Below, piece after piece: positions 543-22,128 of a stretch of DNA of 64,000 nt. Both the position numbers and the translations under genes were made by a program. How positions within the stretch are numbered: position 1 is the first letter of the stretch; each line of letters starts with the position of its first letter. The DNA is from Thalassotalea sp. HSM 43 (lineage in GTDB: Bacteria; Pseudomonadota; Gammaproteobacteria; Enterobacterales; Alteromonadaceae), in contig NZ_CP038493.1 in assembly GCF_004752005.1 (NCBI RefSeq), positions 2,194,302-2,258,301 on the forward strand, given 5' to 3'. The notes beneath the pieces are model-generated. The model was not told the DNA's origin and did not search any database. It saw nothing but the letters and a program-made list of their open reading frames with translations.

Positions 543-564
543 CGCAGCATTAATAGGGGGCGCG

Positions 565-2995: not shown

Positions 2996-3028
2996 TCTGA
3001 CTAGATAACCAACACAGCAGGTATCGCT

Positions 3029-4030: not shown

Positions 4031-4049
4031 TACGTTTAATAGGTAGTTT

Positions 4050-5684: not shown

Positions 5685-5691
5685 CACAGGC

Positions 5692-6543: not shown

Positions 6544-6551
6544 CAAGAGCG

Positions 6552-7559: not shown

Positions 7560-7560
7560 T

Positions 7561-7621
7561 TTTTCAAGGGGTCAGAACACTTGAAACCAGCACTATTTCA
7601 AGTGTACTGACCCCTTGAAAA
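7561..7621. repeat. Long inverted repeat, REPIN-like, between convergent genes
   Basis: Two 26-base arms (7561-7586 and 7596-7621) match at 25 of 26 positions around a 9-base loop. Each arm holds AAGGGGTCAG in inverted orientation. The element fills the whole gap between the CurA-like gene and the convergent regulator gene. It could act as a two-way terminator since both ends are T/A-rich. Its length and the GGGGTCAG core recall REP/REPIN elements mobilised by REP-associated (IS200-like) transposases in marine gammaproteobacteria; that likeness is from memory. No second copy was noticed in the window. Confidence 0.7.
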
Positions 7622-7625
7622 TAGG

Positions 7626-8327
7626 TTATTTGTTGGCGTAGGTTTGTAGAGCCTCGGCATCAAGTACGGTAATTTGGTAATTATTTTCGATTTGAATCAT
7701 GCCGTCCGATTTTAACTTACTAAAGCCACGACTTGTGGTTTCAAGTGAGGTGCCGAGGTAATCGGCAATATCTTGACGACTCATCGGTAAATGGAATTTA
7801 TTGGTACCGTGGCCCAAGCGTGTTTGCATATCCATTAAAAAATGCGCCAATCGCTGATGTGCCGTACGTTGACCCATGATAAACAGTTGATCAAGAATCA
7901 TCGCCAAAATGTGGCTGGTAATTTCCTGATACCGTTGTGCAACAGCTGGGTATTTGTCAAAAATGGTTTTCATTAATGACTGGCTTATCTTAATGACCAC
8001 TGCATTGGTTAATGTTTTCGCGCTAAAGCTATACTGAGCGTGCTCTGATACACCTAGGATGTTGCCCGTTAGGAGAAAGGAAAACACCTGACGACAACCG
8101 GTTGAGGTGGCGCGCTCAAGCATGATGGCACCGGATACAGGGATGTATACGAATTCGTTAGCGTCACCTTCTTCAAATAAATATTCTTGCCCATTAAGGG
8201 TCAACTCTTCAGAGTTTTGCGCAAGATCATCGAAAAAATCACTTAACCCTTCCATGTCTTGCTGGTGGCTACCGAAGAAAGAAGCAAGGGATGTTTTTAT
8301 TGCTACTTTATTAATATCTAAAGACAT
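7626..8327 (-). CDS. Crp/Fnr-family transcriptional regulator
   Basis: A 233-residue Crp/Fnr regulator: a cyclic-nucleotide-binding-type beta-roll (about residues 40-130, with LFEEGDANEFVYIPVSG), a dimer helix, and a winged helix with MSRQDIADYLGTSLETTSRGFSKLKSDGMI (about 180-210). The recognition helix ETTSRGFSKL carries the E-x-x-S-R pattern of FNR-type proteins that read TTGAT-N4-ATCAA. Only one Cys is present, so it has no FNR iron-sulfur cluster and probably senses something else, perhaps a pathway intermediate. It is the last gene of a minus-strand run after two VOC genes. A perfect TTGAT-N4-ATCAA box lies at 11783-11796 ahead of the TonB receptor. Confidence 0.9.
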   Translation of the reverse strand: MSLDINKVAIKTSLASFFGSHQQDMEGLSDFFDDLAQNSEELTLNGQEYLFEEGDANEFVYIPVSGAIMLERATSTGCRQVFSFLLTGNILGVSEHAQYSFSAKTLTNAVVIKISQSLMKTIFDKYPAVAQRYQEITSHILAMILDQLFIMGQRTAHQRLAHFLMDMQTRLGHGTNKFHLPMSRQDIADYLGTSLETTSRGFSKLKSDGMIQIENNYQITVLDAEALQTYANK

Positions 8328-8397
8328 TTTTTATTATCCTTACGTGGCAGAACCTACATCCGAGTGGGAGAAAGCGCTGCCTTAGGCAAGGCTTGGT

Positions 8398-9444
8398 TTA
8401 GCGCGGAGAGTAGAATTCTAACCAATTATTATCTGGTGTCTGGACAGCAAGAATATCGACTAAACCGTATGGTGGCAACTGTAATTGCGTTTCTGCTATC
8501 ACTTCAACCGCGCTTTTTTGTAAATGTTTTTTAAGGGCGCCAATATTGTCTACCGGAAATCGCAAAGTAACCACGCCAAGGTTCGGTGGTTTTGCCAGAT
8601 GGCTCACGTCTTTACCTTGCGCACCATGAAATTGCAGCAGCTCGACTGAGCCTTCATTAATGCCGTCTGGGTGGAGAATATACACACTGCGTTCGATTTG
8701 TGTGGTTAGGTTGTGGGGCAGGCCTAACACATTGGCACCTTCACTTTTGCTCGCACCGCGATGTTCAAGATACATTTTAAAGCCAAGAATATCTTGGTAA
8801 AAGGCCAATGACTTGGCTATGTCTTTTACGACTTGGGTTGAGTTAAAGACGCGACTCACCTGTTTCAGGTTTGGCCAACCTTCGAGTTGCGGTTTAATGC
8901 GTTCAATAAAGGCAAATGCGACGGCATCATGCCCCTTAGCAATCCATTCTTTAACCACAAATGGGCCAAAACTAAATTGAATTGGTGCGGTATCAGCATG
9001 CCAACCCGCTTGCATCAATTGTTGATGCTTGCCTTGCATATCAGCGACGCGGGCATTTAAGTCAAAAATACCACCGGTGTCCCAGCTTTGGGTATTGGCG
9101 CGAATCACATCTTGCTTTACACCCGATATTTGTAGCAGGCGCATATAGCCTTTGTCTTCGCCTATATTTGCCAACAAACGTTGTGTAACGTTGGCGTTAT
9201 CGGGCAACCCCCATAAGTGTTTTAGATTGTCATCAACCGGTGATTGATCAATAACCTGCCAACCAAATAAGGAAACATATTGTTGTGTTGCGGTATCGAT
9301 ATCGGCAACGATAAGCACCGCTTCATTAAAGCCTGACACTTTAAATGGCAACGGTTTATCATCGGCGCCATAACTGCTGTAGCTTGCCAGTGAAAAAATC
9401 GCGATAAGTAAACATAATGCAATGGAACGTGCCGATAACTTCAT
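8398..9444 (-). CDS. Exported double-VOC protein
   Basis: A 348-residue protein with a Sec signal peptide (hydrophobic core LCLLIAIFSLASYSS, likely cleaved near YGA-D) and two VOC modules, about residues 35-180 and 195-345. WDTGGIFDLNARV, FGPFVVKEWI, STQVVKDIAKSLAFYQDILGF and NWLEFYS match the cytoplasmic VOC protein at 3029-4030 block by block, so the two are paralogues in different compartments. Module 1 lacks the usual first metal His (GFNEAV). It starts nine bases after the preceding exported VOC gene ends, so the two are co-transcribed. A periplasmic VOC protein is uncommon; it may bind or transform a ligand brought in by the TonB receptor nearby. Confidence 0.75.
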   Translation of the reverse strand: MKLSARSIALCLLIAIFSLASYSSYGADDKPLPFKVSGFNEAVLIVADIDTATQQYVSLFGWQVIDQSPVDDNLKHLWGLPDNANVTQRLLANIGEDKGYMRLLQISGVKQDVIRANTQSWDTGGIFDLNARVADMQGKHQQLMQAGWHADTAPIQFSFGPFVVKEWIAKGHDAVAFAFIERIKPQLEGWPNLKQVSRVFNSTQVVKDIAKSLAFYQDILGFKMYLEHRGASKSEGANVLGLPHNLTTQIERSVYILHPDGINEGSVELLQFHGAQGKDVSHLAKPPNLGVVTLRFPVDNIGALKKHLQKSAVEVIAETQLQLPPYGLVDILAVQTPDNNWLEFYSPR

Positions 9445-9453
9445 ATTCTGTCC

Positions 9454-10539
9454 CTAGTTCGCTTGAAATACTTCGATAAGAAAGCCGTTTGGCGCGCGTA
9501 AAGTAGCAACGTCTGCTTTGCCATATATTGGGCTGTTGATGCTGGTTTTATCATGAACAATTTGCGTGCCGCTAGTTTTGGCGTTCGCTAGCACGGTATC
9601 GATATTGGTGACCGGAAACGTCCACATCCCCAAACCTAAATTTGGCAAACTCGGCTGAGTTTTAGGGCGTATAGGTTCGATATTTCTATAATCGACAAAC
9701 AACATATGACCCGTCGTTGCGCCTTTACTGTAGACGATGGCAAAACGAAACACGGTGCCGTTAGGTAAGTTCATCGCGCCTTTATCACCTGCGCTTTTAA
9801 ACTCACGGTCGGAACGGATTTCCATGCCTAACACGTCGGTATAAAATGTCAGGTGCTGCTCTGAATTTTCAATAACCATCGCTGAATACGCAGGTCCACC
9901 CATTCCGTCTGCAGCTAATGGACCAAGCTGAGGCATACCATTGCCGCGAGTTATAGCAACGCCATGGACAAAATCTGGGCCATTAAAAATGGTTTCATCA
10001 ATTTGATAGCTACTGCCATCGGTACGCGGAATTGGGTAGCTTTCCAAGGCGTTAAGCGAGCCAAACCCAACCGCTCTCACTTGTTTATCGAGTGCCACTG
10101 TATTGTCATTTGGAAAACCCAACGAAAACGGTCCAAGCTCTCGTCCATCCCAGCTTTGATGAATGCTCGGTGTGGCTTTGTTTAGCACCAGTAATTGAAT
10201 ATTGATCGCTTGCTCTACGCCTTGACGATATAAGTGGTAGGTTTGCCAGTCGATATCGTCTGGTATTTGCCATAAATCTCGCTGTAATTGTTTGGTTTTC
10301 TGATCGATTGCAATAGGACCTTTAACGCTCAAGCCCATGCCTTTTTGATAAAACAATAAGCTTTGTTGCAGTGATGTGGTGGCAATTGTGGCGGTATGTA
10401 AAGGCAACGCCAGTGCCTCGGAGGTCGAGCTCTTTGGCGCCAAGGCGTCTTTATTGTCATTTGACTCAGCAAGCGCAGAGCTGATGTTCACGGTTGTCAT
10501 GACAAATATCAAAATCACCGTTAATAGATTGTTTTTCAT
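9454..10539 (-). CDS. Exported VOC-family protein
   Basis: A 361-residue protein starting at MKNNLLTVILIFV; the longer frame to 10593 would put 18 unlikely residues before the signal peptide. Cleavage probably follows ALA-E near residue 24. Module 1 starts with PLHTATIATTSLQQSLLFYQ, which has the canonical His, and module 2 with YSAMVIENSEQHLTFYTDVLGMEI; the C-terminus IEVFQAN carries the usual Glu position. QSWDGRELGPFSLGF is a distant echo of the WDTGG block in the neighbouring VOC proteins. It heads a minus-strand operon and shares an 81-base divergent promoter region with the VOC gene at 10621. Enzymatic role unknown. Confidence 0.7.
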   Translation of the reverse strand: MKNNLLTVILIFVMTTVNISSALAESNDNKDALAPKSSTSEALALPLHTATIATTSLQQSLLFYQKGMGLSVKGPIAIDQKTKQLQRDLWQIPDDIDWQTYHLYRQGVEQAINIQLLVLNKATPSIHQSWDGRELGPFSLGFPNDNTVALDKQVRAVGFGSLNALESYPIPRTDGSSYQIDETIFNGPDFVHGVAITRGNGMPQLGPLAADGMGGPAYSAMVIENSEQHLTFYTDVLGMEIRSDREFKSAGDKGAMNLPNGTVFRFAIVYSKGATTGHMLFVDYRNIEPIRPKTQPSLPNLGLGMWTFPVTNIDTVLANAKTSGTQIVHDKTSINSPIYGKADVATLRAPNGFLIEVFQAN

Positions 10540-10620
10540 TTTACAAAGCCTGGTTAGCAACTTATTAATAGAACAAATAATAATCACAGCCAAGGCTATA
10601 TATCCAAGGATTTAATTTCG

Positions 10621-11745
10621 ATGATTAGACATTTATCAAATACTCTGTTTGTTATGTTCTGCTTATTTTGTGCGTCGTTACAGGCAAACGACGAGCTACC
10701 ACCTGATACCGGTGTGAGTGGTGTTTACGAAGTCATGATAGGCACCGACAACCCTAAACAAGTTATTGAATTTTTTACTCAATTTGGCTTCTCGCAAATA
10801 AATAAAGGCGATTTTAGTCAGGCCCAAGCCAAGGCTCTGTATGGCGTAGATAGTCGCTTAACCTCGTATCGATTGCAGAATCATGACATCGACAGCCATG
10901 GCTTAATACGTGTTTTGCATTGGCATAATTTGCAAGGTGCAGGGGTTGGTTATGCGCAACCTGAAACCATCGGCCAGCGCATGATGGTGATGCGTACCAA
11001 AGATGTTTTCTTTATCCACGATATCTTTAGCGATGCGCGCAAATCTGGCGAACCATGGCTGGCAACGCCACCTGTTTATGATGATCTGTATGGTATGAGT
11101 GATGGCGAACTTAATGTCATTAACCGTCGTGTTGGTGTACGTGAAATGGGGGTCTATGGCGAGTTGGTTAATTTGGTGTTTTATCAGCGATATGGTTACA
11201 CCATTCCAGGGTATGGCAGCATAAACGCTGGCTCGCCATTGGCGAGTAGTGAAATAACCCACAACGATTTTATTTTATCGGGCCATAGTCGTGAAGATAT
11301 GCTGCGCCAAACAAACTATTATCGCGACGTATTCGGTTTTAAACCGGAAGGCGATGTTGTGCTTGACGGTGACTGGCAACAAGGGCCGAAAACCGTGTTT
11401 AATATGGCCGATGGCAGCAGCCATTGGTACCGTGGATTTGTCAGTCCTAATAATATTTCAGGCAAATTAAAATTTTTTGTCAATCCAGATAAGCGCCCAG
11501 ACAGAAGTGCCTATCAAGCTCCCGGGCAGGCCGGAATCACCTTGCATTCTGTCTATACCGACAAGGTAGAAATGATTCATCAGCTGGCGCAAAAAGAGCA
11601 GCTTAAAATCACCGAAATAAGCGAAAACGAATTTGCTGAAAAGGCGTTTGTTTTATCCGGTCCAGACGGCGCGACATGGCAAGTCATAGCCACACCTTCA
11701 GTTAAAAAACAACCACTTACAAAACTTGAGTTGATTAAAAAATAG
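10621..11745 (+). CDS. Exported VOC-like protein
   Basis: A 374-residue protein with a short signal peptide (LFVMFCLFCASLQA-N) and two weakly conserved VOC modules: SGVYEVMIGTDNPKQVIEFFTQFGF at the start of module 1, and ILSGHSREDMLRQTNYYRDVFGFK at the start of module 2. The first metal His is absent from module 1. GPDGATWQVIATP ends the second module, without the Glu that normally closes the metal site. AAGGA precedes the ATG by about ten bases. It is transcribed away from the other two exported VOC genes and towards the TonB receptor gene. Binding rather than catalysis is possible given the missing ligands; this is inference. Confidence 0.65.
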   Translation: MIRHLSNTLFVMFCLFCASLQANDELPPDTGVSGVYEVMIGTDNPKQVIEFFTQFGFSQINKGDFSQAQAKALYGVDSRLTSYRLQNHDIDSHGLIRVLHWHNLQGAGVGYAQPETIGQRMMVMRTKDVFFIHDIFSDARKSGEPWLATPPVYDDLYGMSDGELNVINRRVGVREMGVYGELVNLVFYQRYGYTIPGYGSINAGSPLASSEITHNDFILSGHSREDMLRQTNYYRDVFGFKPEGDVVLDGDWQQGPKTVFNMADGSSHWYRGFVSPNNISGKLKFFVNPDKRPDRSAYQAPGQAGITLHSVYTDKVEMIHQLAQKEQLKITEISENEFAEKAFVLSGPDGATWQVIATPSVKKQPLTKLELIKK

Positions 11746-11782
11746 CACCTAATTGGGCGTTTATTTGCCAGTTCTGCGCTAT

Positions 11783-11796
11783 TTGATAAATATCAA
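11783..11796. promoter_or_regulatory. Perfect FNR/Crp-type box TTGAT-N4-ATCAA
   Basis: TTGAT-AAAT-ATCAA, a 14-base perfect palindrome matching the FNR consensus, stands 165 bases before the TonB-receptor start. The Crp/Fnr regulator encoded at 7626-8327 has an FNR-type recognition helix and is the obvious local candidate to bind it; a genome-encoded FNR could as well. Confidence 0.7.
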
Positions 11797-11961
11797 AAAG
11801 CGTAGGGCAACTGGATTATATCAATGAATAAATTGTGTAAGGATTAATCGAGTGTTGCATTTGTGTAAACGCAAAACACGAAAATTAACGTCATGAGCAG
11901 ATACAAAAAATAATAACTAGCTCACATTAAATAAATAATAAATCCATGTCAGGGGTTTGAG

Positions 11962-14247
11962 ATGAAAACAAAATTTGCACCAAGTCATTTAGGGAAAGCG
12001 GTTAAGCTAGCCTTAGTTGCATCGGTCATGGCAATGCCAGTGGCATATGCTCAAGAGCAAGCACAACAACAGCAAGTTGAAGATGCAGAAGGTATTGAAC
12101 ATATCGAGGTCACATCTCGTCATCGTAAAGAGTCGTTAGATAAAATTCCTTTATCGGTTTCGACTTTCAGTTCGGAAGATATCGAAAATGCCAGTATGAC
12201 CAATATCAATGACATTGCTAGCAATGCGATTGGTTTCTCAATGGAAAAAACCTTTGGTCGTCAATCGGATATTCCGGTTATCCGCGGCGTGTCATGGATT
12301 CCTGGTTTTGGTTCACAAAAAGCATCGTACTTCATTGATGGTGTCTACTATGGTGGTTCAATTCAGTCATTACCGCTTGATCTAATAGAGCGAGTTGAGG
12401 TGGTAAAAGGCCCACAAAGTGCTCTGTACGGTCGTCGTACGTTTTCAGGTGCCATTAACTTAATTACTAAAAAACCAACAGAAGAATTATCGGGCTACGC
12501 GACAGCGTCTGCAGGTGAAAATGGTTATTTAGCGATGAGTGGTGGTATCTCAAGTGAAGTGACCGACTGGTTTGGATTTAGAGCGTCGGTATCGACAGAC
12601 GAATACGACGGCGATTGGGACAATGAAAAAGAAGGCGGCCCGTCGGTAGGTGGTGAAGAAACCACGTCTTACATGTTAGGCCTGTACTTTACCCCAGGTG
12701 ACAACACCGATATTGCTTTAAAGTATATTTACAACGAGCAAGACGATGAAATGCAGCCGTTCATGTATCAAGACCCATCGTACAACAACTGTTTCCTTGA
12801 TACCCGTGCCTATTACTGTGGCGAAGCGAAAAAAGATTTGCCGATTAACATGGGTGGCATTTTAGATAACAGTGATTATGGTCTAGAAACCGAAAGCACT
12901 CATATTAGTTTGCGCATCGATCACACCTTTGATTTTGGTACGTTAACGTACATTGGTGGTATGAACGATTATGAAGCGACCGGTGGTCTTGATCAAACCT
13001 ACGCTGGTTACGAACAAGTCTTTAATTTTGGTTTCTTCTTTACCTTCGATCCGGCAGATTATTTTGCCCCTGCAGATGGTTGGCATAGCCTTGATACCAG
13101 TGAAGATGAAGAATACAGTCATGAACTTCGCTTTTCATCGACAGCCTTTGACGATCGGTTATATTGGTCCGTTGGCGCCTACATTTGGCACTATGAAGAC
13201 GAACCAGGCGCAGTTGGCTCGTTTAAAGAAGAGCGTGATAACACCGCATTTATGGCGTCAGTTTCATACGATGTCACCGATGATTTAACCATCTCGGGTG
13301 AAATTCGTAGTTCTGAAGATGAGATTGAAACAGCATCTTACGACACGCTGCGTGACGCAGGCTATGATGTCGATAATACGTTTGATAGCACCACAACACG
13401 TTTCATCGCTGAATATAACCTTACCGACGAAGACTTACTTTATGTGACTCGTTCAGAAGGTAATAGCCCAGGTGGCTTTAACAATAATGAATTGTTACCG
13501 ACTGAGTTGATCGTTGTCGATGAAGAAGAAATGGTGATGTATGAAGCCGGTTGGAAAACCACCATGTTTGATGGTGATGTGTACCTATCGACGGCGGTAT
13601 TCTTTATGGACTGGGATAAGCAACAATTAACCGACAGCTACATACCTGAAGGTGGTGGCGTGCCGATTTCTTACACCTCAAACGCTGGTGAAACTGAAAT
13701 CAAAGGTATTGAGTTGCAAGGTAAGTGGAACATTTCTGAAAACTTTGATTTAGATTTTGGTTTCTCTTATACCGACGCAGAATTTACCGAAGCATTTGAT
13801 CGAAATCACTGTCGTTTCTTTGTTGAAGGCGGTTCAAATTCTGCCTGTGGCGACCCAGATACGTTACGTGAATTTGGTGATATCTCTGGTAATACACCGC
13901 CGCAAGTTCCTGAAAAAGAAGGTGTTGTTGCACTTAACTACAATACTCAAGTGTTTGATGATTGGGGCTTGTTTGGCCGTGTAAGCGTGAACTATGATTC
14001 ATCACGTTATGCACACGTGCACAACTTTATTGAAACAGGCGACCGTACCCGTGTCGATGTTAACCTTGGTCTACAAAGTGAAAACTGGCGCTTCCAGTTA
14101 TGGGGTAAAAACGTGACTGACGATGATACGCCTACCTATGTATTCCGTTATATCGATGCGCAAAGCTTTGCCTTGAGTTCACGAGCATTTCCAATTGCTC
14201 CTCCTCGCGGTCGTGAGTTCGGCGTAACGGCGACTTACAGGTTCTAA
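11962..14247 (+). CDS. TonB-dependent outer-membrane receptor
   Basis: A 761-residue receptor with a signal peptide cleaved at AYA-Q31. The plug domain follows (about residues 45-165): IEHIEVTSRHR, then LIERVEVVKGPQSALYGRRTFSGAINLITKKP. A long beta-barrel ends in the required terminal aromatic, ATYRF. The barrel is of the catabolite-uptake type seen in marine Alteromonadales and sphingomonads, not obviously a siderophore receptor. AGGGG stands six bases before the start. It has its own 216-base upstream region with an FNR-type box and a terminator after it, so it is a single-gene unit. From its place among catabolic genes it probably imports their substrate; that is inference. Confidence 0.92.
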   Translation: MKTKFAPSHLGKAVKLALVASVMAMPVAYAQEQAQQQQVEDAEGIEHIEVTSRHRKESLDKIPLSVSTFSSEDIENASMTNINDIASNAIGFSMEKTFGRQSDIPVIRGVSWIPGFGSQKASYFIDGVYYGGSIQSLPLDLIERVEVVKGPQSALYGRRTFSGAINLITKKPTEELSGYATASAGENGYLAMSGGISSEVTDWFGFRASVSTDEYDGDWDNEKEGGPSVGGEETTSYMLGLYFTPGDNTDIALKYIYNEQDDEMQPFMYQDPSYNNCFLDTRAYYCGEAKKDLPINMGGILDNSDYGLETESTHISLRIDHTFDFGTLTYIGGMNDYEATGGLDQTYAGYEQVFNFGFFFTFDPADYFAPADGWHSLDTSEDEEYSHELRFSSTAFDDRLYWSVGAYIWHYEDEPGAVGSFKEERDNTAFMASVSYDVTDDLTISGEIRSSEDEIETASYDTLRDAGYDVDNTFDSTTTRFIAEYNLTDEDLLYVTRSEGNSPGGFNNNELLPTELIVVDEEEMVMYEAGWKTTMFDGDVYLSTAVFFMDWDKQQLTDSYIPEGGGVPISYTSNAGETEIKGIELQGKWNISENFDLDFGFSYTDAEFTEAFDRNHCRFFVEGGSNSACGDPDTLREFGDISGNTPPQVPEKEGVVALNYNTQVFDDWGLFGRVSVNYDSSRYAHVHNFIETGDRTRVDVNLGLQSENWRFQLWGKNVTDDDTPTYVFRYIDAQSFALSSRAFPIAPPRGREFGVTATYRF

Positions 14248-14714: not shown

Positions 14715-14752
14715 AAAACCAATCAGTTGCTTAGGTATCGCCTAAGCAACTG
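14713..14752. terminator. Hairpin terminator for the minus-strand operon
   Basis: CAGTTGCTTAGG (14724-14735) and CCTAAGCAACTG (14741-14752) form a perfect 12-bp stem. Read on the minus strand it is followed a few bases later by TTTTTT (14713-14718), so it mainly ends the operon that stops at 14797. On the plus strand it may also end the DUF3718-like gene. Confidence 0.75.
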
Positions 14753-14796: not shown

Positions 14797-15852
14797 CTAT
14801 TTAGGCATCAAATAGCTGAGTTCCATATCCAGTACCACATCTTGATGATAGCGGCCATTATCGACATCCTTAACAAAAGGCATCGATGACGGGTGATTAT
14901 TTTTAAAGCCCAGTAATTGTACTTTCACCAACGCCAAATCGTCTCTGTCACTATATTGGTCTATAGCGATAATGTTGCTTTGCGCGTAAATGGTATCACC
15001 GGCGAAGCTCGGATTGGTATGTTTACCAGAGTGAATCGCAGTCAGATAGAGACCGTTAGCTAAACCATTGTAACTTAGCGCCCGACAAACACTGATAATA
15101 TGCCCGCCATATACCAAGCGTTGGCCATGCTTTTGTGATTGCATTAAGTGCTGGTCAAAGTGAACTCTGGCGTTGTTCTGATATAGACGAGTCGCCATAC
15201 TGTGATCAGAATCGTTTAAGGTCACGCCATCTTGGTGAAAAATGCTGTCTCCGACATTCAATTGTGAGGCGCGTAATTGGTTATCGCTGACATAATCTTG
15301 CCAACGAGATAGGTTCATACAGTGCGGGATCAACTGGCCACTGGCTTCAACTTCAGATTGTAACTCTGGTACCGTATCGCTGCTATCGTTTGCCAAAGGA
15401 TCACGCTTGTTGATCATCACCCAGCGTTTAAATTGCAATACCAACTGTTGGCGTTGGTTATAGGCTTTGGAGTGCACATATAGCACACCAGTTTCACCAT
15501 TGGAGTTGGCTTTCTTGCCGATAACTTCACTGCACACGTAAATGGTATCGTCAGGATATACGGTAGTAAAAAACTGCACTTCGGCGTAACCAAGATTAGC
15601 AACCGCATTGCGAGATACATCGTTTACGGTCTTACCAAAGGCAATATTAAACAGTAAAAAGTTGTCCACGGGGGTGGTACGAAAGCCGACTCGGGTGGCG
15701 ACAGGTTCAGCACAATGCAAGGCAAAACGAGAGCCGGTTAGGGCTAAATACATACTGCAATCAGCATAGGTTATGGTACGTGGCACGCCATGTTTGATCT
15801 GTTGACCAATATAGAAATCTTCAAAAAACATACCTTGATTTTGGGTATCCAT
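14797..15852 (-). CDS. MaoC-type hydratase, mesaconyl-CoA hydratase-like
   Basis: A 351-residue double-hotdog protein. GKTVNDVSRNAVANLGYAEV, the VYPDDTIYVCSEVIG strand and KKANSNGETGVLYV are the distinctive block of mesaconyl-CoA hydratase (beta-methylmalyl-CoA dehydratase, Mch/Mcd) of the ethylmalonyl-CoA and methylaspartate pathways. RLVYGGHIISVCRALSYNGL in the C-terminal half is the second hotdog. The expected reaction is mesaconyl-C1-CoA plus water to beta-methylmalyl-CoA, or the analogous step on a related 2-enoyl-CoA diacid. It is the last gene of a four-gene operon with two CitE-type lyases and a CoA ligase, a context that fits hydration followed by C-C cleavage. The start has an upstream GAGGAG-like site. 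Exact substrate is inferred. Confidence 0.8.
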   Translation of the reverse strand: MDTQNQGMFFEDFYIGQQIKHGVPRTITYADCSMYLALTGSRFALHCAEPVATRVGFRTTPVDNFLLFNIAFGKTVNDVSRNAVANLGYAEVQFFTTVYPDDTIYVCSEVIGKKANSNGETGVLYVHSKAYNQRQQLVLQFKRWVMINKRDPLANDSSDTVPELQSEVEASGQLIPHCMNLSRWQDYVSDNQLRASQLNVGDSIFHQDGVTLNDSDHSMATRLYQNNARVHFDQHLMQSQKHGQRLVYGGHIISVCRALSYNGLANGLYLTAIHSGKHTNPSFAGDTIYAQSNIIAIDQYSDRDDLALVKVQLLGFKNNHPSSMPFVKDVDNGRYHQDVVLDMELSYLMPK

Positions 15853-15875
15853 GATCTGTACTCCTCACGCTTCAA

Positions 15876-16784
15876 TTAACAGGGTTTACCAAACAATTCA
15901 TCTTGACCCATTTCACTGACCTTGTTGTAGAGGCAAATAACTCGATTCGCCCATTGCTCAAGACAGGGTTCGATAAGTCTATCGTCAATAACCGCGACCG
16001 ATTGACCTTGCTGTTGGGCTAATTCCATGGCCGTGATGATGTCTTTTGCCTTTTTAATGTCTTCCGCTTTGGGTGTTAGAGCATCATTGGTATAGGTAAG
16101 CTGTACTGGGTGAATGACCGCTTTACCGTCGAAGCCTAAATCGCGCGCTTGACGACAGCTAAATTCACAGGCCACGGCATCTTTCAGGTTAAAGTGAGGG
16201 CCGTCGATAATTGCTTTATTGTGTGCTCGCGCGCTAAGAATACACATCGATAGATAGGTCAATAAACCTTGGCGGTCGAGGGTCATATTGATGCGCAATG
16301 AGTTAGCCAAATCGGTTGTGCCCATGACTATGGTGGTTAGTCTGTCCGTTGATGCGCAAATTTGTTCACAGCGCAACACCCCTAATGGCGATTCGATATT
16401 GGCCATCACCGACAACTTGTGACCACCGTGATGGTTTAATATGGCGATGTTGTTGGCCAACTGTTCTTCACTTTCAATATCTGGGAATAACACACCGTCA
16501 ATATTGAGCGCGGCGATGGCGGCGATATCTTCTTTACCCCATGGGGAATCAAGTCGATTTACTCGAACGATTTTTTCGGAATAACCAAAATCATAATCGC
16601 TTAATTGTTGCACCAATAATTGACGTGCTTGCTCTTTGCGTGCCGGTGGCACCGACTCTTGCAAGTCAAAGATGATCACATCGGCATTTAAGTCTCGAGA
16701 CTTTTCGATGTAATGTTGGTGGTGTGCCGGCACATACAGCGCGCTGCGACGAGGGCGGTACGTAGGGTGAGTATTACAAGTCAT
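15876..16784 (-). CDS. HpcH/HpaI (CitE-type) CoA-ester lyase
   Basis: A 302-residue CitE-fold TIM barrel. RRSALYVPAHHQHYIEKSR matches the family start, NIESPLGVLRCEQI gives the metal-binding Glu and MGTTDLANSL the metal-binding Asp. The usual DLEDSV after the second strand reads DLQESV (residues 40-45), an oddity. RVNRLDSPWGKEDI carries the CoA/substrate Arg. Such lyases split beta-hydroxyacyl-CoAs such as malyl-CoA, citramalyl-CoA or beta-methylmalyl-CoA. The ATG at 16784 has GGAG upstream; an in-frame ATG at 16799 would just touch the stop of the ligase gene. It stands 23 bases before the hydratase gene. Which of the three lyases in this region acts on which ester is unknown. Confidence 0.85.
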   Translation of the reverse strand: MTCNTHPTYRPRRSALYVPAHHQHYIEKSRDLNADVIIFDLQESVPPARKEQARQLLVQQLSDYDFGYSEKIVRVNRLDSPWGKEDIAAIAALNIDGVLFPDIESEEQLANNIAILNHHGGHKLSVMANIESPLGVLRCEQICASTDRLTTIVMGTTDLANSLRINMTLDRQGLLTYLSMCILSARAHNKAIIDGPHFNLKDAVACEFSCRQARDLGFDGKAVIHPVQLTYTNDALTPKAEDIKKAKDIITAMELAQQQGQSVAVIDDRLIEPCLEQWANRVICLYNKVSEMGQDELFGKPC

Positions 16785-16798
16785 CGTGTTCTCCAGCA

Positions 16799-18439
16799 TT
16801 AAACGGCTTTTTGGTTTGAGTTATGTAAATCGTTTAGCATTTGTTTGCGCAGTACTTTGCCATTTTTAGTGCGTGGAAAGTCCTGATAGAAATGCACCAG
16901 CTTGGGTGCTTTGTATTTGGCTAATCGGTCACTGGCAAAGTTAATAATATCTTGTTCGGTGGTGCTGACGTTGCTCTGCAATATGACACAGGCGCTCACC
17001 AAGGTTTTCTCGCCTTCCAATTGTTGGCCTAAGGCGACGCAATCGGCGACATCGGGGTGGGTTTTGATCACGCGCTCAATTTCATGTGGTGAGACGCGGT
17101 AACCAAAGGTGTTAATGATGTCGTCTTTACGACCGACAAACCAAATATAACCGTCATCGTCTATACGAGCGTAATCGCCTGTATAAAAGTAACCGTGGTG
17201 TCGAGACTTTGCCGTTTCATCAGGCAATTGCCAATACTCTAAAAACAGTCCCGGATCATTGTCTTTTATGGCAATCATGCCTTCTTCACCAGGTTTGGCC
17301 GGCTGATTTTGCTCATTTAACAGCACCACCTCATGACCCGGTTGCACGAAGCCTGCGGCTCCTGGGCGAATTGCGCGACGTTTGTTTTGAGAGATGTAAT
17401 AAGAGAATTCACTCATGCCAATGGCTTCATAGACATCCATACCAAAACGCTCGCGCCAAGCGATTAACATCTCATCGCTAAGGTGTTCGCCAGCACTCAT
17501 ACAGTGACGCAAGCTAGGTACCTGCTGCTGATCAAAGTCGGTTTTTTGGATGATTTGTCGATAAATGGTTGGTACGCCAATGAAAATACTGCAGTTATGT
17601 TTTTTTATCAGTCTTGGCCATGTTGAGGCATCGTTTTTACCCTCATGAACAATCACGGTATGGCCGTGAAATAACGGGTCCATTAACGCCGAGCCCAACA
17701 CATAGGTCCAATTAAATTTGCCAGAATGCATGATCCGGTCGCCGTCTTTAAAATCAAACCAATGACGACTGGCGGGTAAGCGACCTATCAGCGAGCGATG
17801 CGCATGTAACACACCTTTGGGATAACCGGTTGTACCTGAGGTATATACCAGATACGCGGCATCATCGGGTTTACTGGCAACAATGCTGTCATCAACCGGC
17901 ACCTGTGTTAGCAAGGCCTGTAAGTCGATGAGCTCTAAATTACTGTCATTGACTGGCATCTCACCGTCGCCGGTAAGCAACACGGTGCGTAATTGACTGT
18001 CGCTGTTGGCGATGTCTTTTAACTCTGGCCACATCGACTTGGCTGTAATCAGTACTTTCGCTGCCGAGTCTTGTGCTAAATAGGCAACTTCTGCCGCGGA
18101 TAACAAGGTTGAGGTTGGCACCGCAATGGCACCGTATTTTAAACAACCGAAAAAACTGGTTGGATAATCTACCGAGTTAGGCAACCGAATAAGTACCCGG
18201 TCCGCCTGTTGCAAACCCAATTGACGCAACACATAAACCAGTCGCCCTGATAGTTGGTCAAGCTGTTGATAGCTTAGCTCGCTGCTACCAAGACAATCAT
18301 CTTCGACTATCAGAGCCGTTTTCGCGCCGTTACCGGCTTCAACATGTTGACGCACACAAGCGTGGGCAATATTAAAATGCTCAGGGATATGCCATTGCCA
18401 GCCGTGATCCGTTTCTGTAAGTAAGTCTGCATAGTTCAT
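16799..18439 (-). CDS. AMP-forming acyl-CoA ligase
   Basis: A 546-residue ANL-superfamily ligase: YTSGTTGYPKGVLHAHRS is the P-loop (near residue 190), MSEFSYY the A5 region, TGDYARIDDDGYIWFVGRKDD the A7/A8 hinge and PRTKNGKVLRK has the catalytic Lys. It activates a carboxylic acid with ATP to the acyl-AMP and then to the CoA ester. The overall pattern is nearer to benzoate/short-acid ligases than to long-chain ones. The ATG at 18439 has GGAGGT six bases upstream, better than the in-frame start at 18478. It lies 10 bases after one lyase gene and 14 bases before another, clearly one operon; its acid should feed the hydratase and lyase steps. Confidence 0.9.
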   Translation of the reverse strand: MNYADLLTETDHGWQWHIPEHFNIAHACVRQHVEAGNGAKTALIVEDDCLGSSELSYQQLDQLSGRLVYVLRQLGLQQADRVLIRLPNSVDYPTSFFGCLKYGAIAVPTSTLLSAAEVAYLAQDSAAKVLITAKSMWPELKDIANSDSQLRTVLLTGDGEMPVNDSNLELIDLQALLTQVPVDDSIVASKPDDAAYLVYTSGTTGYPKGVLHAHRSLIGRLPASRHWFDFKDGDRIMHSGKFNWTYVLGSALMDPLFHGHTVIVHEGKNDASTWPRLIKKHNCSIFIGVPTIYRQIIQKTDFDQQQVPSLRHCMSAGEHLSDEMLIAWRERFGMDVYEAIGMSEFSYYISQNKRRAIRPGAAGFVQPGHEVVLLNEQNQPAKPGEEGMIAIKDNDPGLFLEYWQLPDETAKSRHHGYFYTGDYARIDDDGYIWFVGRKDDIINTFGYRVSPHEIERVIKTHPDVADCVALGQQLEGEKTLVSACVILQSNVSTTEQDIINFASDRLAKYKAPKLVHFYQDFPRTKNGKVLRKQMLNDLHNSNQKAV

Positions 18440-18449
18440 AATCGACCTC

Positions 18450-19571
18450 CTATATGCGACCGTATGGCCAGTTTTCACGAATCACCGTGATAGGCAGGCG
18501 TTTAAGCACGTCCATGGCAAACTGTTTGTCTTTATCATCGAGAGATTTTAATGCGTAGGCTCGCAGCAGTGTTTGTAATGCTTTACCAAACATTGGCGGG
18601 TCGAGCATTTCACCTTCAAACTTGATGGCACCACCGAGTAAGGCATCGGCATCAATTGCTGCCTGCAATATTTCAACGTTGCGTTTGATTTCTTTTGGAG
18701 AAGGGGTGAACGCCACTTTACATAAATGAATATGATACGGGTGAATCAACTGCTTACCGGTTAAGCCCATTTTGGTTTCTACCATCGCATGGTCATGGAC
18801 GACATGAGATTCATGATCGCCATGCAAATCGAGCCAACGTCGAACATCGTCTGGTTCGATAAAATGCTCTGGCATCGGTGTATCGTTAATTAATACTTCA
18901 ACACCACCGATAACCCCTTTACCGGCAATTCTCGCTTCCAGCAGTAAATTTCGTAGGTAAGTTAATAACTCATCAATCCAACCTTCAGGGGTTAGATGAA
19001 TTGCCATCGCTTTAGAGAAATCGTGGATACCAAACACCACATGCTTAACCGATGGAAATGCCATGAGTTCCGCGGCGATTTTCAAACTACGCGGGTGCTC
19101 AATAATCGGTTGAATTTCGATATCAGGGTTAACACCGAGTAACCAGGCGGATAAATCTCTTATTTCAGCGGCACCATACATTTCGCCGGCCTTGGCAAGA
19201 ACAATGACATCAATATGTTCAGCCACTTGCATAATCATCGCCAAGTCTTTTTCATACTCTTCGGTGCGAAAGGGGTTGATACGCACGGCAATTTGAAAAT
19301 CTCGTTGCGGAAACTTAGGCAGCTCATTAAGCAATAGCTCTCGACTCATGGCTTTCTGACGACAGCCATCTTCTAAGTCGAACAATAGCGTGTGCGCTTG
19401 ACAATTATGAGCGTGCTTGCGAATACGTTCGCTGGCTTGTTGCATCGATTCATAGGTGCCATCTTTAGGAGAATACTTAACCGGCGGATAATACAATTGA
19501 ATGCCAGGCCAAAAGCCACCGAGTACATCTTGCTCATCTACCTGCTCTAAAAATTCATTGTGGTAATTCAT
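18450..19571 (-). CDS. HpcH/HpaI-type CoA-ester lyase, larger form
   Basis: A 373-residue lyase, longer than plain CitE (about 290). LLFDLEDGCRQKA holds the conserved acidic pair, PIIEHPRSLKIAAEL the metal-binding Glu, VFGIHDFSKAMAIH the metal-binding Asp, and GLTGKQLIHPYHIHLCKVAFTPS the family C-terminal substrate loop. An insertion (about 225-265, rich in His and Asp) separates it from small CitE proteins. GGGGAGAG precedes the ATG at 19571; the in-frame upstream start at 19616 lacks support. First gene of the four-gene minus-strand operon; its promoter lies in the 421-base divergent spacer. It is expected to cleave a beta-hydroxyacyl-CoA. Confidence 0.85.
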   Translation of the reverse strand: MNYHNEFLEQVDEQDVLGGFWPGIQLYYPPVKYSPKDGTYESMQQASERIRKHAHNCQAHTLLFDLEDGCRQKAMSRELLLNELPKFPQRDFQIAVRINPFRTEEYEKDLAMIMQVAEHIDVIVLAKAGEMYGAAEIRDLSAWLLGVNPDIEIQPIIEHPRSLKIAAELMAFPSVKHVVFGIHDFSKAMAIHLTPEGWIDELLTYLRNLLLEARIAGKGVIGGVEVLINDTPMPEHFIEPDDVRRWLDLHGDHESHVVHDHAMVETKMGLTGKQLIHPYHIHLCKVAFTPSPKEIKRNVEILQAAIDADALLGGAIKFEGEMLDPPMFGKALQTLLRAYALKSLDDKDKQFAMDVLKRLPITVIRENWPYGRI

Positions 19572-19660
19572 TTTCTCTCCCCTGTTTGAGCTATTTAAGC
19601 GCTTTGTTGCTAACATCTTCTGGTCTGACCTCGATCAAAAATTGAAAGCTTTTATTAACA

Positions 19661-19679
19661 ATTACACTATTAGAGTAAT
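19661..19679. promoter_or_regulatory. Operator-like palindrome near the minus-strand operon
   Basis: ATTACACTA-T-TAGAGTAAT, 19 bases with a single mismatched pair, 90 bases upstream of the start at 19571. It is in promoter range for the minus-strand operon. It shares ATTAC/GTAAT half-sites with the palindrome at 19937-19953. Confidence 0.5.
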
Positions 19680-19936
19680 TATTTCAATCAAATGTTTTAA
19701 AAAAGTGTTTGAATTTTTTTTGCGCAGAGGCTAGGGTAAAAAACAACAAGTTGATTATTTACTCACCAACGTATTGACGCTAAAGGTCTTTAGAGGGCAT
19801 TGTTTGAGTAAAAAAGGCGATATTTGATTATTAGTGGCCAGTATAAACCTTTGTCGCCAATGACTGCCCGGAGACAGGGTTAAGCACATAATCTAATCAT
19901 GGCTTGTTTTGTGTAAATGTCTAACTTTCATTAAAA

Positions 19937-19953
19937 ATGTAATAAAATTACAT
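19937..19953. promoter_or_regulatory. Perfect palindrome ATGTAAT-AAA-ATTACAT
   Basis: A 17-base perfect palindrome, 39 bases before the ATG of the plus-strand lyase, a place suited to a repressor operator. GTAAT/ATTAC half-sites occur in reverse order in the palindrome at 19661-19679, so one regulator could control both arms. Confidence 0.55.
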
Positions 19954-19992
19954 AATGGCAACGCCATTAATATTAAAATAGCGGAGATTTTT

Positions 19993-20982
19993 ATGAGCGC
20001 TCTTGTTCACCCAAACGAAGCTTTATTTGAAGCGGAGAAACCATTTCCAGTGATCCCATCGTGTGAGCATTTTGCTGGTAGCGAAAAGCTAATCAACAAG
20101 GCAATGGCTATGCAACAACAGCTTGGACCGGTTTTCGATATCACTTGTGATTGTGAAGATGGCGCAGCAGCTGGCAGTGAACAACAACACGCTGAAATGG
20201 TGGCGCGACTGATTGCCTCTGATGACAATCAGTTCGCTATGTTGGGGGTAAGGGTGCATGATTATTCGCACCCACATTGGAAGAAAGACCTGGAAATTCT
20301 GATCCCAGCTTGTGGTCATAAAGTTGCTTACATTACCTTGCCGAAGTGTACTGCGGGCAGTCAAATTGAAGAGATGGTTAAATATATTCAAGGACTATGT
20401 GAATACCATTCTATCGACCGTGAAATCCCCATTCATGTGTTAATTGAAACCCACGGTGCCTTGCGTGATGTCTGGCAAATTGCGGCAACGCCATGGGTGC
20501 AGGTATTGGACTTTGGTATGATGGATTTTGTATCTGGTCATTACGGTGCGATTCCAGCGAGTTGTATGCGCAGCCCGGGACAATTTGACCATGCGTTGTT
20601 GTATCGTGCAAAAACTGAAATGGTCGCAGCCGCGTTAGCCCATGGCGTAATACCCGCCCACAATGTCACCTTAGATTTAAAAAATGTGCAGCAGACATTA
20701 GATGATGCCAAGCGGGCTCGTAATGAGTTCGGCTTTATGCGCATGTGGTCCATTTACCCAACACAAATTCAAGCCATCGTTGACGCGATGAAACCAAACT
20801 ATGAAGAAGTTGAAGACGCCGAAGCGATTTTATTGGCGGCGCAGCAAAATGCTTGGGGACCGATTCAACATAAAGGTGAACTGCACGATCGTGCGACCTA
20901 TCGCTATTACTGGCAATTATTGCAACGTGCACAAGTCAGTGGCATTGAGATAGGGCAAGCTGCTCGAATGGCGTTTTTCTAA
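19993..20982 (+). CDS. Malyl-CoA/beta-methylmalyl-CoA lyase-like protein (CitE/Mcl)
   Basis: A 329-residue CitE-superfamily lyase of the long form found in proteobacteria. HPNEALFEAEKPFPVIPSCEH, then GPVFDITCDCEDGAAAG with the acidic pair, HVLIETHGALRDVW with the metal-binding Glu and DFGMMDFVSG with the metal-binding Asp. IYPTQIQAIV is the conserved C-terminal loop. Relatives cleave beta-methylmalyl-CoA to glyoxylate and propionyl-CoA or malyl-CoA to glyoxylate and acetyl-CoA. The ATG at 19993 has GGAG eight bases upstream, so the longer frame from 19909, which would also swallow the palindrome, is rejected. It is divergent from the operon holding the mesaconyl-CoA-hydratase-like gene, its natural partner. 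Confidence 0.85.
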   Translation: MSALVHPNEALFEAEKPFPVIPSCEHFAGSEKLINKAMAMQQQLGPVFDITCDCEDGAAAGSEQQHAEMVARLIASDDNQFAMLGVRVHDYSHPHWKKDLEILIPACGHKVAYITLPKCTAGSQIEEMVKYIQGLCEYHSIDREIPIHVLIETHGALRDVWQIAATPWVQVLDFGMMDFVSGHYGAIPASCMRSPGQFDHALLYRAKTEMVAAALAHGVIPAHNVTLDLKNVQQTLDDAKRARNEFGFMRMWSIYPTQIQAIVDAMKPNYEEVEDAEAILLAAQQNAWGPIQHKGELHDRATYRYYWQLLQRAQVSGIEIGQAARMAFF

Positions 20983-21099: not shown

Positions 21100-22128
21100 A
21101 TGACTAACACCAATGTGGGCTTCGCCCTTAAATTAATCGACGATGTCGAAACGCCATTATCACAACGCTTAGAATTAATTGAAAAACCAATTCCAGCACT
21201 AAAGCCTGGGCAAGTGTTGGTGAAAATGTTGGCAGCACCAATCAATCCATCTGATTTAGTCTACCTGATGGGCAAATATGGCTTGCCACCGGTTGATGGT
21301 GCATACGCTGGATTCGAAGGTTGTGGCGAAGTTATTGATGCCAACGCCGGATTGTATGGCAAATATTTAAAAGGTAAACGTGTCGCTTTATCGGCAGCGC
21401 CGGGCGGCGACGGGGTTTGGGGTAAATACGCTATTACCTACGCGAACTACTGTTTACCGGTTCGCAAAGAGTTGACCGATGCGCAAGCGGCAACCCTGAT
21501 CGTTAACCCATGTACATCGGTGTGTTTGGTTGAACGCGCTAAACAATTGGGTGCTAAAGCGATCGTATTAAACGCCGCAGCAAGCCAAGTCGGTAAAGGC
21601 GTTATTCGCTATGCAAAATTGCAAGGAATCAAAACCATTGCCACGGTACGTTCAGCAAAAAACGTTGCCGTTTTAAAGGATTTAGACGCAGATCGAGTAC
21701 TGTTGGCTGAAGATGGTGACTTTAAAGCGCAATTGAAACAAGCTTGCATTGACCTAAAAGCGAGTGTGTTTCTTGACGCTGTTGCCGATAAAGATACACC
21801 GCGAGTAATGTCACAAATGGGCAAGGGCGCAACGGCGATTGTTTATGGTCGACTCACAGAAACATTACACCCTTTTGGTGGTTACTTCTCGGTATCGGAT
21901 TTATTGTTTAAAGACCAGCACATCGAAGGCTTTTGGCTAGCGACTTATATTGGTAAAGCCAACCCATTACAGGTCTTGGCTTTATCGCGCAAAGTGCAAA
22001 AGCTGTTCAGTGACGGTATTTTTGAGACCGATGTTTACGGCCACTTTAAGCCACAACAATTTTTGTCGGCGTTAGAGCATTATGCTGTACACAAAAGTGA
22101 TGGCAAAGTATTGCTAACGTTTGATTAA
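21100..22128 (+). CDS. MDR-family quinone/enoyl reductase-like oxidoreductase
   Basis: A 342-residue medium-chain dehydrogenase/reductase without zinc-site cysteines in the usual places. MLAAPINPSDLVYLMGKYG is the N-terminal GroES-like signature shared with mitochondrial-type trans-2-enoyl-CoA reductases and quinone reductases. LNAAASQVGKGVIRYAKLQG is the NADPH-binding turn, and KVLLTF the usual end. At this size it is too short for crotonyl-CoA carboxylase/reductase. It follows the Mcl-like gene on the same strand after 117 bases with a weak hairpin between, so it may or may not belong to the catabolic set. The last 15 bases overlap the convergent DUF3630-like gene. Confidence 0.8.
   Translation: MTNTNVGFALKLIDDVETPLSQRLELIEKPIPALKPGQVLVKMLAAPINPSDLVYLMGKYGLPPVDGAYAGFEGCGEVIDANAGLYGKYLKGKRVALSAAPGGDGVWGKYAITYANYCLPVRKELTDAQAATLIVNPCTSVCLVERAKQLGAKAIVLNAAASQVGKGVIRYAKLQGIKTIATVRSAKNVAVLKDLDADRVLLAEDGDFKAQLKQACIDLKASVFLDAVADKDTPRVMSQMGKGATAIVYGRLTETLHPFGGYFSVSDLLFKDQHIEGFWLATYIGKANPLQVLALSRKVQKLFSDGIFETDVYGHFKPQQFLSALEHYAVHKSDGKVLLTFD

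Follow-up and report, generated by a model that had tools for sequence, protein, structure and literature searches.

A five-gene cluster for a mesaconyl-CoA hydratase-type protein, an acyl-CoA ligase, and three CitE-superfamily proteins in Thalassotalea sp. HSM 43: a candidate part of a citramalate–methylcitrate route of acetyl-CoA assimilation

In the genome of Thalassotalea sp. HSM 43 (4.01 Mb, one contig, NZ_CP038493.1), a gene encoding a mesaconyl-CoA hydratase-type protein lies beside genes for an AMP-forming ligase and three different CitE-superfamily proteins. The locus raises the question of which acid feeds such a gene set and why three putative lyases are encoded side by side. The DNA analyzed is a stretch of 64,000 nucleotides (positions 2,194,302 to 2,258,301 of the forward strand; hereafter the window), in which the five genes occupy positions 14797–20982. 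Judged from the genomes compared, the five-gene set is apparently part of an unrecognized route that leads from acetyl-CoA, derived from fats or acetate, to cell material in bacteria without the glyoxylate shunt. We assign a probability of roughly 55% to the reading that this module supplies the CoA-ester steps of a cycle for acetyl-CoA assimilation in place of the glyoxylate shunt, in which a citramalate route is combined with the methylcitrate cycle. The genes are termed HYD (mesaconyl-CoA-type hydratase), LY1 to LY3 (CitE-superfamily proteins), and LIG (AMP-forming ligase); labels of the type Gnnn and Lnnn denote the genomes and loci of this analysis. The features of the locus are:

14797..15852, minus strand: HYD, mesaconyl-CoA (2-methylfumaryl-CoA) hydratase-type MaoC protein, 351 amino acids
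15876..16799, minus strand: LY1, CitE-superfamily protein of the Mcl2 (malyl-CoA thioesterase-like) clade, 307 amino acids
16799..18439, minus strand: LIG, AMP-forming acyl-CoA ligase, 546 amino acids from the ATG at 18439; proposed mesaconate–CoA ligase
18450..19571, minus strand: LY2, strongly conserved CitE-superfamily lyase outside the characterized subfamilies, 373 amino acids; proposed citramalyl-CoA lyase or citramalate-forming enzyme
19993..20982, plus strand: LY3, CitE-superfamily lyase of the 3QQW/3R4I type, 329 amino acids from the ATG at 19993; proposed beta-methylmalyl-CoA/malyl-CoA lyase
19683..19713, no strand: two overlapping PsrA-type palindromes (TTCAAAC N4 GTTTGAA, two mismatches each) in the shared promoter region
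14724..14752, minus strand: terminator-like hairpin (12-pair stem, T-rich tail) 3' of HYD, at the end of the four-gene operon

A preliminary description, made from the sequence of the window, had reported five genes in two divergent units, and all five were found at the same coordinates and on the same strands. The minus-strand unit reads LY2-LIG-LY1-HYD with tightly spaced or overlapping genes, and LY3 is located on the plus strand. The longer frames originally given for LY2, LIG, and LY3 begin at upstream codons and were not retained; the Shine–Dalgarno context moves all three starts, to 19571 for LY2 (GGGGAG), 18439 for LIG (AGGAGG right behind the LY2 stop codon), and 19993 for LY3 (GCGGAG). 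Across the region, 13 terminator-like sites were counted compared to 7.0 ± 2.9 in shuffled sequences. The sequence blocks NAVANLGYAEV and NSNGETGV, on which the hydratase had been recognized, are both present in HYD, and Pfam agreed with the reported three CitE-superfamily proteins beside it, with the ligase between two of them (HpcH_HpaI three times, AMP-binding once). None of the five proteins reached the cut-off of a curated NCBIfam equivalog (for LIG, among the best 25 of 108 families), so that exact substrates cannot be read from NCBIfam.

The gene set recurs as a unit in other bacteria. A strong HYD match was detected in 17 of 59 relatives, namely in the source genome, 13 of 14 genomes of the same genus, and three genomes from other families. 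In 16 fetched regions, the gene order is the same and the flanks differ (the contig of G003 ends before LY3). A scan for LY2 with one genome per species gave 226 relatives, and the locus counts below rest on the best 80 of these. The loci belong to Thalassotalea, which supplies most of the nearest named ones, Kangiella, Aliikangiella, Pleionea, Sedimenticola, Sulfuricella, Sideroxydans, Gallionella, Thiobacillus, Methylotenera and other Methylophilaceae, Nitrosomonadaceae, Sulfurospirillum, and unplaced metagenome-assembled genomes (MAGs). In 64 of the 80 loci, the complete set of five genes was found no more than 10 kb from LY2; only LY3 is missing in three and only LY1 in one, and LY2 and LIG stand alone in 12. 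In Thalassotalea relatives, Kangiellaceae, Betaproteobacteria, and Sulfurospirillum, the module is arranged as one operon or as two. When the class was sampled evenly, a true LY2 (at least 630 bits) was present in five of 276 genomes, the source genome included, which indicates that the module is rare and patchy. No gene family outside the module is common to more than 16 of the 80 loci. The ten annotated families shared in divergent loci are regulators and enzymes of central metabolism, with no transporters among them (families restricted to Kangiella lie outside this annotation).

Genomes carrying the module differ from others in their content of isocitrate lyase and prpB. In 50 LY2-bearing genomes, isocitrate lyase scored above the curated cut-off once, compared to 73 of 276 background genomes, and prpB in 45 compared to 84 of 276 (Fisher values, which ignore relatedness, 2.8e-5 and 1.1e-15, respectively). 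The sole carrier of isocitrate lyase, G374, is also without a prpB match. Among the 59 relatives, an isocitrate lyase match at E ≤ 1e-25 was found in none of the 17 with HYD and in 33 of the 42 without it. Frames of about 540 residues that matched at close to 100 bits presumably encode the longer type of isocitrate lyase. The source genome contains no isocitrate lyase above the cut-off (best match 67 bits) and no match to malate synthase A. Weak matches in frames of malate synthase G length were obtained in five of the 17 HYD-bearing relatives (G004, G006, G007, G010, G011) and in four of the 50 LY2-bearing genomes, a further one of which contains malate synthase A in pieces. Class I fumarase is encoded in 49 of the 50. 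Crotonyl-CoA carboxylase/reductase was detected in none of 66 genomes including that of strain HSM 43, while the control genome, Caulobacter, gave a match; the ethylmalonyl-CoA pathway was rejected on this count.

Operon structure ties the module to the methylcitrate cycle and to fumarase. Among same-strand neighbors at most 400 bases apart in the fetched loci, LY2 is followed by LIG 80 times, LY1 by HYD 71 times, LIG by LY1 56 times, HYD by LY3 30 times, LY3 by prpB 12 times, and LIG by a class I fumarase gene 11 times. In six more loci (L090, L091, L093, L104, L105, L111), the fumarase gene lies approximately 0.7–1.0 kb past LIG. Class I fumarases are described as interconverting mesaconate and (S)-citramalate (PMC4682846). 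The position of this mesaconase directly behind LIG in the 11 loci points to citramalate, formed from pyruvate and acetyl-CoA, as the precursor. The source of the acid, left open in the preliminary description, has thereby gained a concrete candidate, citramalate supplied via class I fumarase. Seven genomes combine LY2-LIG alone (within 10 kb) with malate synthase A, and the prpB region was fetched from six of them, by label four Burkholderiales/Betaproteobacteria, one Nitrosomonadaceae, and one "Lysobacter" MAG. In four (G355, G367, G368, G372), LY1-HYD-LY3-prpB-prpC form one row divergent from GntR/sdh, followed by acnD in three; the fourth stretch stops short of acnD. In the other two, the contig begins just before or inside LY3 (LY3 alone in G357, a fragment in G369) and runs into prpB-prpC-acnD. 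The LY2-LIG pairs of these six genomes have a class I fumarase gene approximately 0.7–1.0 kb on in four cases and approximately 8.6 kb on in G372; the sixth contig ends. No LY1, HYD, or LY3 was found in the two stretches fetched from the seventh genome, G374. The order typical of Methylophilaceae is prpB-LY3-HYD-LY1, GntR, malic enzyme, sdh, LY2, LIG, class I fumarase, and acnB where the stretch reaches that far (L097, L107, L113, L117, L120); L110 has prpC past prpB, and L108 shows no fumarase. A conserved methylcitric acid cluster and the lack of the glyoxylate shunt are reported for Methylophilaceae in the passages of PMC6794327. Counted from coordinates, prpB and class I fumarase are at most 3 kb apart in 16 of the 50 genomes, and in G040, acnD-prpC-prpB and the fumarase gene stand in one row. 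The source genome encodes prpB-prpC-acnD-prpF and one class I fumarase.

HYD matched the Pfam families MC_hydratase (PF19315; 78 bits, cut-off 26.5) and MaoC. It is 46% identical to PDB 4e3e (337 bits) and 41% identical to the beta-methylmalyl-CoA dehydratase 8hgn (290 bits). The NCBIfam hits, which included no bacterial Mch-type model, were far below the cut-offs (haloarchaeal NF041625, 74 bits, cut-off 560; RipB/Ich, 107 bits, cut-off 340), and the haloarchaeal protein annotated as mesaconyl-CoA hydratase (Mch) is 23% identical to HYD and distant in the tree. In this tree, HYD stands with 8hgn, 4e3e, and the Ruegeria Mch on one side of a branch supported by 99/98, and the HYD proteins of the module are intermixed with these three and form no clade of their own. 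The assignment as Mch, which the preliminary description had exposed to refutation by a phylogeny, appears to be right: with the few references included, HYD falls inside the bacterial Mch group.

LY2 and LY3 gave 41 and 47 bits, respectively, with HpcH_HpaI (PF03328; cut-off 25), and in the tree they represent CitE subfamilies other than Mcl1. The seven catalytic positions D42, E44, D45, R76, E141, D168, and D299 (R. sphaeroides Mcl numbering) are invariant in 81 rows of LY2; in LY3, the catalytic residues are retained in 64–66 of 66 rows, and the remainder are gaps or X. LY3 is 62% identical to 3QQW and 53% identical to 3R4I, both solved structures without assigned function, and on plasmids of Sphingobium and Cupriavidus, it neighbors a gene of the Mch type. 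The best PDB matches of LY2 reached 45 bits (single sequence) and 52 bits (profile), and no near relative is characterized. Its predicted structure (mean pLDDT 63.9) was placed by Foldseek among CitE-superfamily lyases, with malyl-CoA lyase and CLYBL as top matches; it was discarded as a substrate clue because the model is of low confidence and the placement adds nothing in this respect. LIG (Pfam AMP-binding, 247 bits) is nearest to anthranilate- and benzoate-CoA ligases in the PDB. It accompanies LY2 in all 80 loci, on the same strand and within 400 bases for 80 of 81 LY2 genes. A second AMP-forming ligase, 23–25% identical to LIG, is encoded upstream on the strand opposite to LY2-LIG in nine loci (L090, L091, L093, L098, L104, L105, L106, L109, L111).

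LY1 matched PF03328 with 133 bits, and its best match in the plasmid collection was a protein of a Ruegeria megaplasmid (39% identity). Three genes on from the Ruegeria gene lies a MaoC/Mch gene, and five genes on lies sdhC, the order in which mcl2 (malyl-CoA thioesterase) is found in Rhodobacter; the protein is taken as Mcl2 from its neighbors and the gene order of R. sphaeroides. In the tree, LY1 and the Ruegeria protein group together (100/99), apart from Mcl1, RipC, and CLYBL. In the account of Zarzycki and Kerfeld (PMC3832036), as far as consulted, the Mcl2 group alone has a Glu replacing the catalytic Asp of the lid. The lid residue is Glu in 53 of 68 LY1 rows, that of the window included, Asp in nine, Gln in five, and a gap in one; it is Asp in six reference lyases and Glu in the Ruegeria Mcl2-like protein. 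Of the metal-binding carboxylates, E141 is kept in 64 of 68 rows, D168 in 52, and E44 in three, and the loss of E44 sets LY1 apart from the Ruegeria protein, too. By its lid residue and position in the tree, LY1 is probably not an ordinary lyase and groups with the probable malyl-CoA thioesterase Mcl2. In ten loci (L086, L088, L089, L092, L096, L099, L102, L116, L119, L122), LIG and LY1 are fused into one protein of 839–852 residues; AB1918 of Arcobacter butzleri is described as a comparable ligase-CitE fusion (PMC2147049). The possibility that LY1 substitutes for malate synthase was refuted by the four genomes with LY1, HYD, and LY3 in the prpB region, all of which contain malate synthase A, so that LY1 is not a simple replacement for that enzyme.

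The intergenic region between LY2 and LY3 was searched for the operator TTCAAAC N4 GTTTGAA, allowing two mismatches in 14 positions, in 51 distinct sequences from divergent loci. The operator was found in 42 of them (41 with at most one mismatch), compared to 0.39% of 2550 first-order shuffles. In 1.85 Mb of locus sequence, 72 of 82 sites of this type fall into the LY2/LY3 intergenic region (some genomes are counted twice). PsrA of Pseudomonas putida was footprinted on TTCAAACN4GTTTGAA (PMC13104628, in the part consulted). For Shewanella, a predicted PsrA regulon including aceBA, sdh, and gltA is described, with PsrA controlling fatty acid degradation (PMC3223726, PMC5343134, in the passages on this regulator). 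A fatty acid-responsive repressor of the PsrA type probably controls the module in Thalassotalea and Kangiellaceae. With the Shewanella glyoxylate shunt under predicted PsrA control, these bacteria seem to place the module under PsrA instead.

In the proposed cycle, LY2 would join acetyl-CoA and pyruvate to citramalyl-CoA, from which CoA would be released by LY2 or LY1 to give (S)-citramalate. Class I fumarase, encoded elsewhere in the genome, would convert citramalate to mesaconate, and LIG would activate mesaconate with CoA and ATP. Mesaconyl-CoA would then be hydrated by HYD to beta-methylmalyl-CoA, which LY3 would cleave into glyoxylate and propionyl-CoA. Glyoxylate and a further acetyl-CoA would yield malyl-CoA and then malate by the action of LY3 or LY2 together with the putative thioesterase LY1; a lyase and thioesterase pair of this kind forms the "apparent malate synthase" of Rhodobacter. 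The methylcitrate cycle, also encoded elsewhere, would turn propionyl-CoA and oxaloacetate into pyruvate and succinate. In sum, two acetyl-CoA and oxaloacetate would give malate and succinate, which is the net reaction of isocitrate lyase and malate synthase, at the cost of one ATP converted to AMP. The chemistry of this pathway is well supported, and candidates for all steps of a citramalate cycle (citramalate formation, mesaconase, mesaconate activation, hydratase, and lyase) are linked in operons. The role of LY2 as the citramalate-forming enzyme is suggested by gene context. We infer the direction of flow, the substrates of LIG and of each lyase, and the identity of the regulator. The forward direction is favored by the missing isocitrate lyase, the fatty acid-type operator, the position of prpBC after the propionyl-CoA-forming step, and the kinship of LY1 with Mcl2. 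Somewhat more tentatively, the patchy gene set, often split into two operons, may be read as a citramalate–methylcitrate cycle that supplies malate and succinate from acetyl-CoA without isocitrate lyase, with pyruvate as a recycled carrier and PsrA control in heterotrophs. In autotrophs and methylotrophs, it might serve acetyl-CoA oxidation or the formation of C4 acids without 2-oxoglutarate dehydrogenase. The sequence from mesaconate via mesaconyl-CoA and beta-methylmalyl-CoA to glyoxylate and propionyl-CoA had been recognized in the preliminary description, and with HYD in the Mch group, the set fits it. The number of lyases, judged excessive there and taken as a hint at chain shortening of an unknown diacid, would be accounted for by a separate task of each CitE protein in the cycle; the hint lost ground with LY1 in the Mcl2-type clade carrying the lid Glu, and with LY2 and LY3 in different operons elsewhere.

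Several observations weigh against a cycle replacing the glyoxylate shunt. Its direction is the weakest point, as the order of reactions is chemically possible in reverse. To our knowledge, no activity has been measured for orthologues of LY2, LY3, or LIG. The 50 LY2-bearing genomes were hand-picked from the 80 and include several incomplete MAGs, the background of 276 was a different draw of the class, and co-occurrence counts and Fisher values disregard phylogeny. In five of the 50 (G348, G349, G350, G353, G374), prpB is below the cut-off or absent, and in seven, malate synthase A is above it; LY1 is present in four of the six such genomes with a fetched prpB region, the contigs of the other two starting too late. 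Class I fumarase is widespread whether the module is present or not (54 of 59 relatives), and in the source genome, the fumarase and methylcitrate genes are located away from it. The two overlapping operator sites in the window are the weakest of the 42, and the operator is missing in nine of the 51 regions, two of them of the Kangiellaceae type (L052 and L053) and the others from Chromatiales, Sedimenticola, Thiotrichales, or unplaced MAGs. It is not obvious why the autotrophic and methylotrophic lineages that carry the module would need to assimilate acetate. In G001, of the same genus, a HYD match and an isocitrate lyase above the cut-off are both missing; by both routes considered here, it should fail to grow on acetate and may serve as a natural negative control.

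Run in reverse, the same enzymes would dispose of glyoxylate and propionyl-CoA in the manner of the second half of the 3-hydroxypropionate bi-cycle: the two would be joined to beta-methylmalyl-CoA and dehydrated to mesaconyl-CoA, LY1 would release mesaconate as a thioesterase, fumarase would form citramalate, LIG would activate it to citramalyl-CoA, and LY2 would split this into pyruvate and acetyl-CoA. Every gene receives a step in this scheme, with LY2, LIG, and fumarase in one row, and for the ab1917–ab1921 cluster of A. butzleri, which has the same composition, an interconversion of glyoxylate and propionyl-CoA with pyruvate and acetyl-CoA was proposed in the passages on it (PMC2147049). 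The scheme requires free propionyl-CoA and glyoxylate, however, and the linked prpBC would compete for propionyl-CoA; as it also leaves the near-absence of isocitrate lyase and the fatty acid-type operator unexplained, we consider it unlikely. Catabolism of an imported C5 acid such as mesaconate, citramalate, or beta-methylmalate, as suggested in the preliminary description, is more doubtful still. Genes for parts of such a route do exist, and catabolic clusters of Sphingobium and Cupriavidus plasmids contain HYD-LY3 pairs adjacent to CoA-transferases, but the annotated neighbors shared by divergent loci are the regulators and central enzymes noted above rather than transporters, and no family recurs widely. 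The module is, moreover, kept in lineages known as obligate autotrophs or methylotrophs, and is tied to sdh, malic enzyme, prpB, and acnB.

Two further explanations appear very improbable. The three chemical steps from mesaconate are identical to those in the second half of the methylaspartate cycle, in which mesaconate arises by the glutamate mutase route, and the preliminary description had drawn this parallel. It found no backing in the gene neighborhoods: neither glutamate mutase nor methylaspartate lyase was among the annotated conserved neighbors (the search covered gene neighborhoods and not entire genomes), and the haloarchaeal Mch is far from HYD in identity and in the tree. A metabolite repair system, which would clear malyl-, citramalyl-, or mesaconyl-CoA arising as by-products, is likewise hardly credible; the resemblance of LY1 to a thioesterase would suit it, but such a system would have no need of the ligase, the hydratase, or a shared row with methylcitrate cycle genes.

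The proposed cycle resembles several known or postulated systems. Among the routes for refilling the tricarboxylic acid cycle from acetyl-CoA, a review of 2021 (PMC8307300, in the passages considered) names the glyoxylate and ethylmalonyl-CoA pathways, the methylaspartate cycle, the combination of pyruvate synthase and carboxylation, and the citramalate cycle. In the scheme published for Rhodospirillum rubrum, with which the module was compared, the citramalate cycle leads from acetyl-CoA and pyruvate via citramalate, mesaconate, mesaconyl-CoA, and methylmalyl-CoA to glyoxylate and propionyl-CoA, the reaction sequence proposed here. It uses a CoA-transferase and a methylmalonyl-CoA route (PMC8307300), whereas the module has a ligase, a linked class I fumarase, an Mcl2-type thioesterase candidate, and the methylcitrate cycle closing the ring. 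Proposals of the citramalate cycle go back to 1997; for R. rubrum it is disputed and, in the words of PMC4682846, "still needs to be proven". The A. butzleri cluster was described in 2007 with the same five functions, a ligase-CitE fusion, and fumarase; the likeness is one of description, and the passages concern one genome and give no distribution, isocitrate lyase exclusion, operator, or thioesterase role of a CitE protein (PMC2147049). In the Creative Commons-licensed literature of PubMed Central, this was the only paper found proposing a pathway for such a cluster, and the methylcitrate linkage, isocitrate lyase exclusion, thioesterase assignment, and operator were not found in print there. 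The glyoxylate shunt has the same net reaction with different enzymes, and the passages cited above place Shewanella aceBA under predicted PsrA control (PMC3223726, PMC5343134). The second cycle of the 3-hydroxypropionate bi-cycle (Chloroflexus; partial in Kentron) shares Mch and a malyl-/beta-methylmalyl-/citramalyl-CoA lyase, as described in PMC6593406; unlike it, the module has a ligase, a thioesterase-like protein, and class I fumarase, with neither Mct nor Meh among the annotated conserved neighbors. The module likewise resembles the ethylmalonyl-CoA pathway of Rhodobacter and Ruegeria (mch, mcl1, mcl2), in which the steps beyond mesaconyl-CoA are catalyzed by Mch, malyl-CoA lyase, and Mcl2: the Ruegeria mch- and mcl2-like genes are located near sdh, as are LY1-HYD in Betaproteobacteria. 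It differs in lacking crotonyl-CoA carboxylase/reductase, in a mesaconyl-CoA that would derive from free mesaconate, and in LY2 and LY3, which do not belong to the Mcl1 subfamily.

If the proposed cycle operates, the citramalate cycle question would become directly testable in culturable marine bacteria, and genomes seemingly without an anaplerotic route would be open to re-annotation. Three families annotated as "citrate lyase" would gain candidate functions, with LY3 as kin of 3QQW and 3R4I, and the methylcitrate cycle would have a reason in organisms not known as propionate users.

The preliminary description had counted among the parts of the route the family III CoA-transferases found at the left border of the window. 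The fragment at the edge belongs to a separate itaconate-type cluster, which borders the window on the left (L026, G000:C1:2174401-2194400, 14846–19196, and window 102–1728) and encodes RipC- and RipB-like proteins, an acyl-CoA dehydrogenase, an SDR, a PuuE-like protein, and the CoA-transferases. The RipC- and RipB-like proteins scored 236 bits each, below the curated cut-offs of 375 and 340. Apart from the source genome, relatives of this cluster (67–89% identity) adjoin the module in one of the 16 regions of approximately 20 kb (G006), and the CoA-transferases were ruled out as pathway members because they are not conserved with it. On the other side, a zinc-type medium-chain reductase of the quinone/enoyl reductase family (21100–22128) adjoins LY3 in several Thalassotalea genomes and was not seen next to the module in Kangiellaceae and more distant loci. 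Between the itaconate-type cluster and HYD (1949–14247), the window encodes a CpeT-family protein, four VOC/glyoxalase-fold proteins, a GlcD-like FAD oxidase, an alpha/beta hydrolase, a CurA-like reductase, a Crp/Fnr regulator, and a TonB-dependent receptor, which are perhaps involved in the uptake and breakdown of a pigment or polyphenol.

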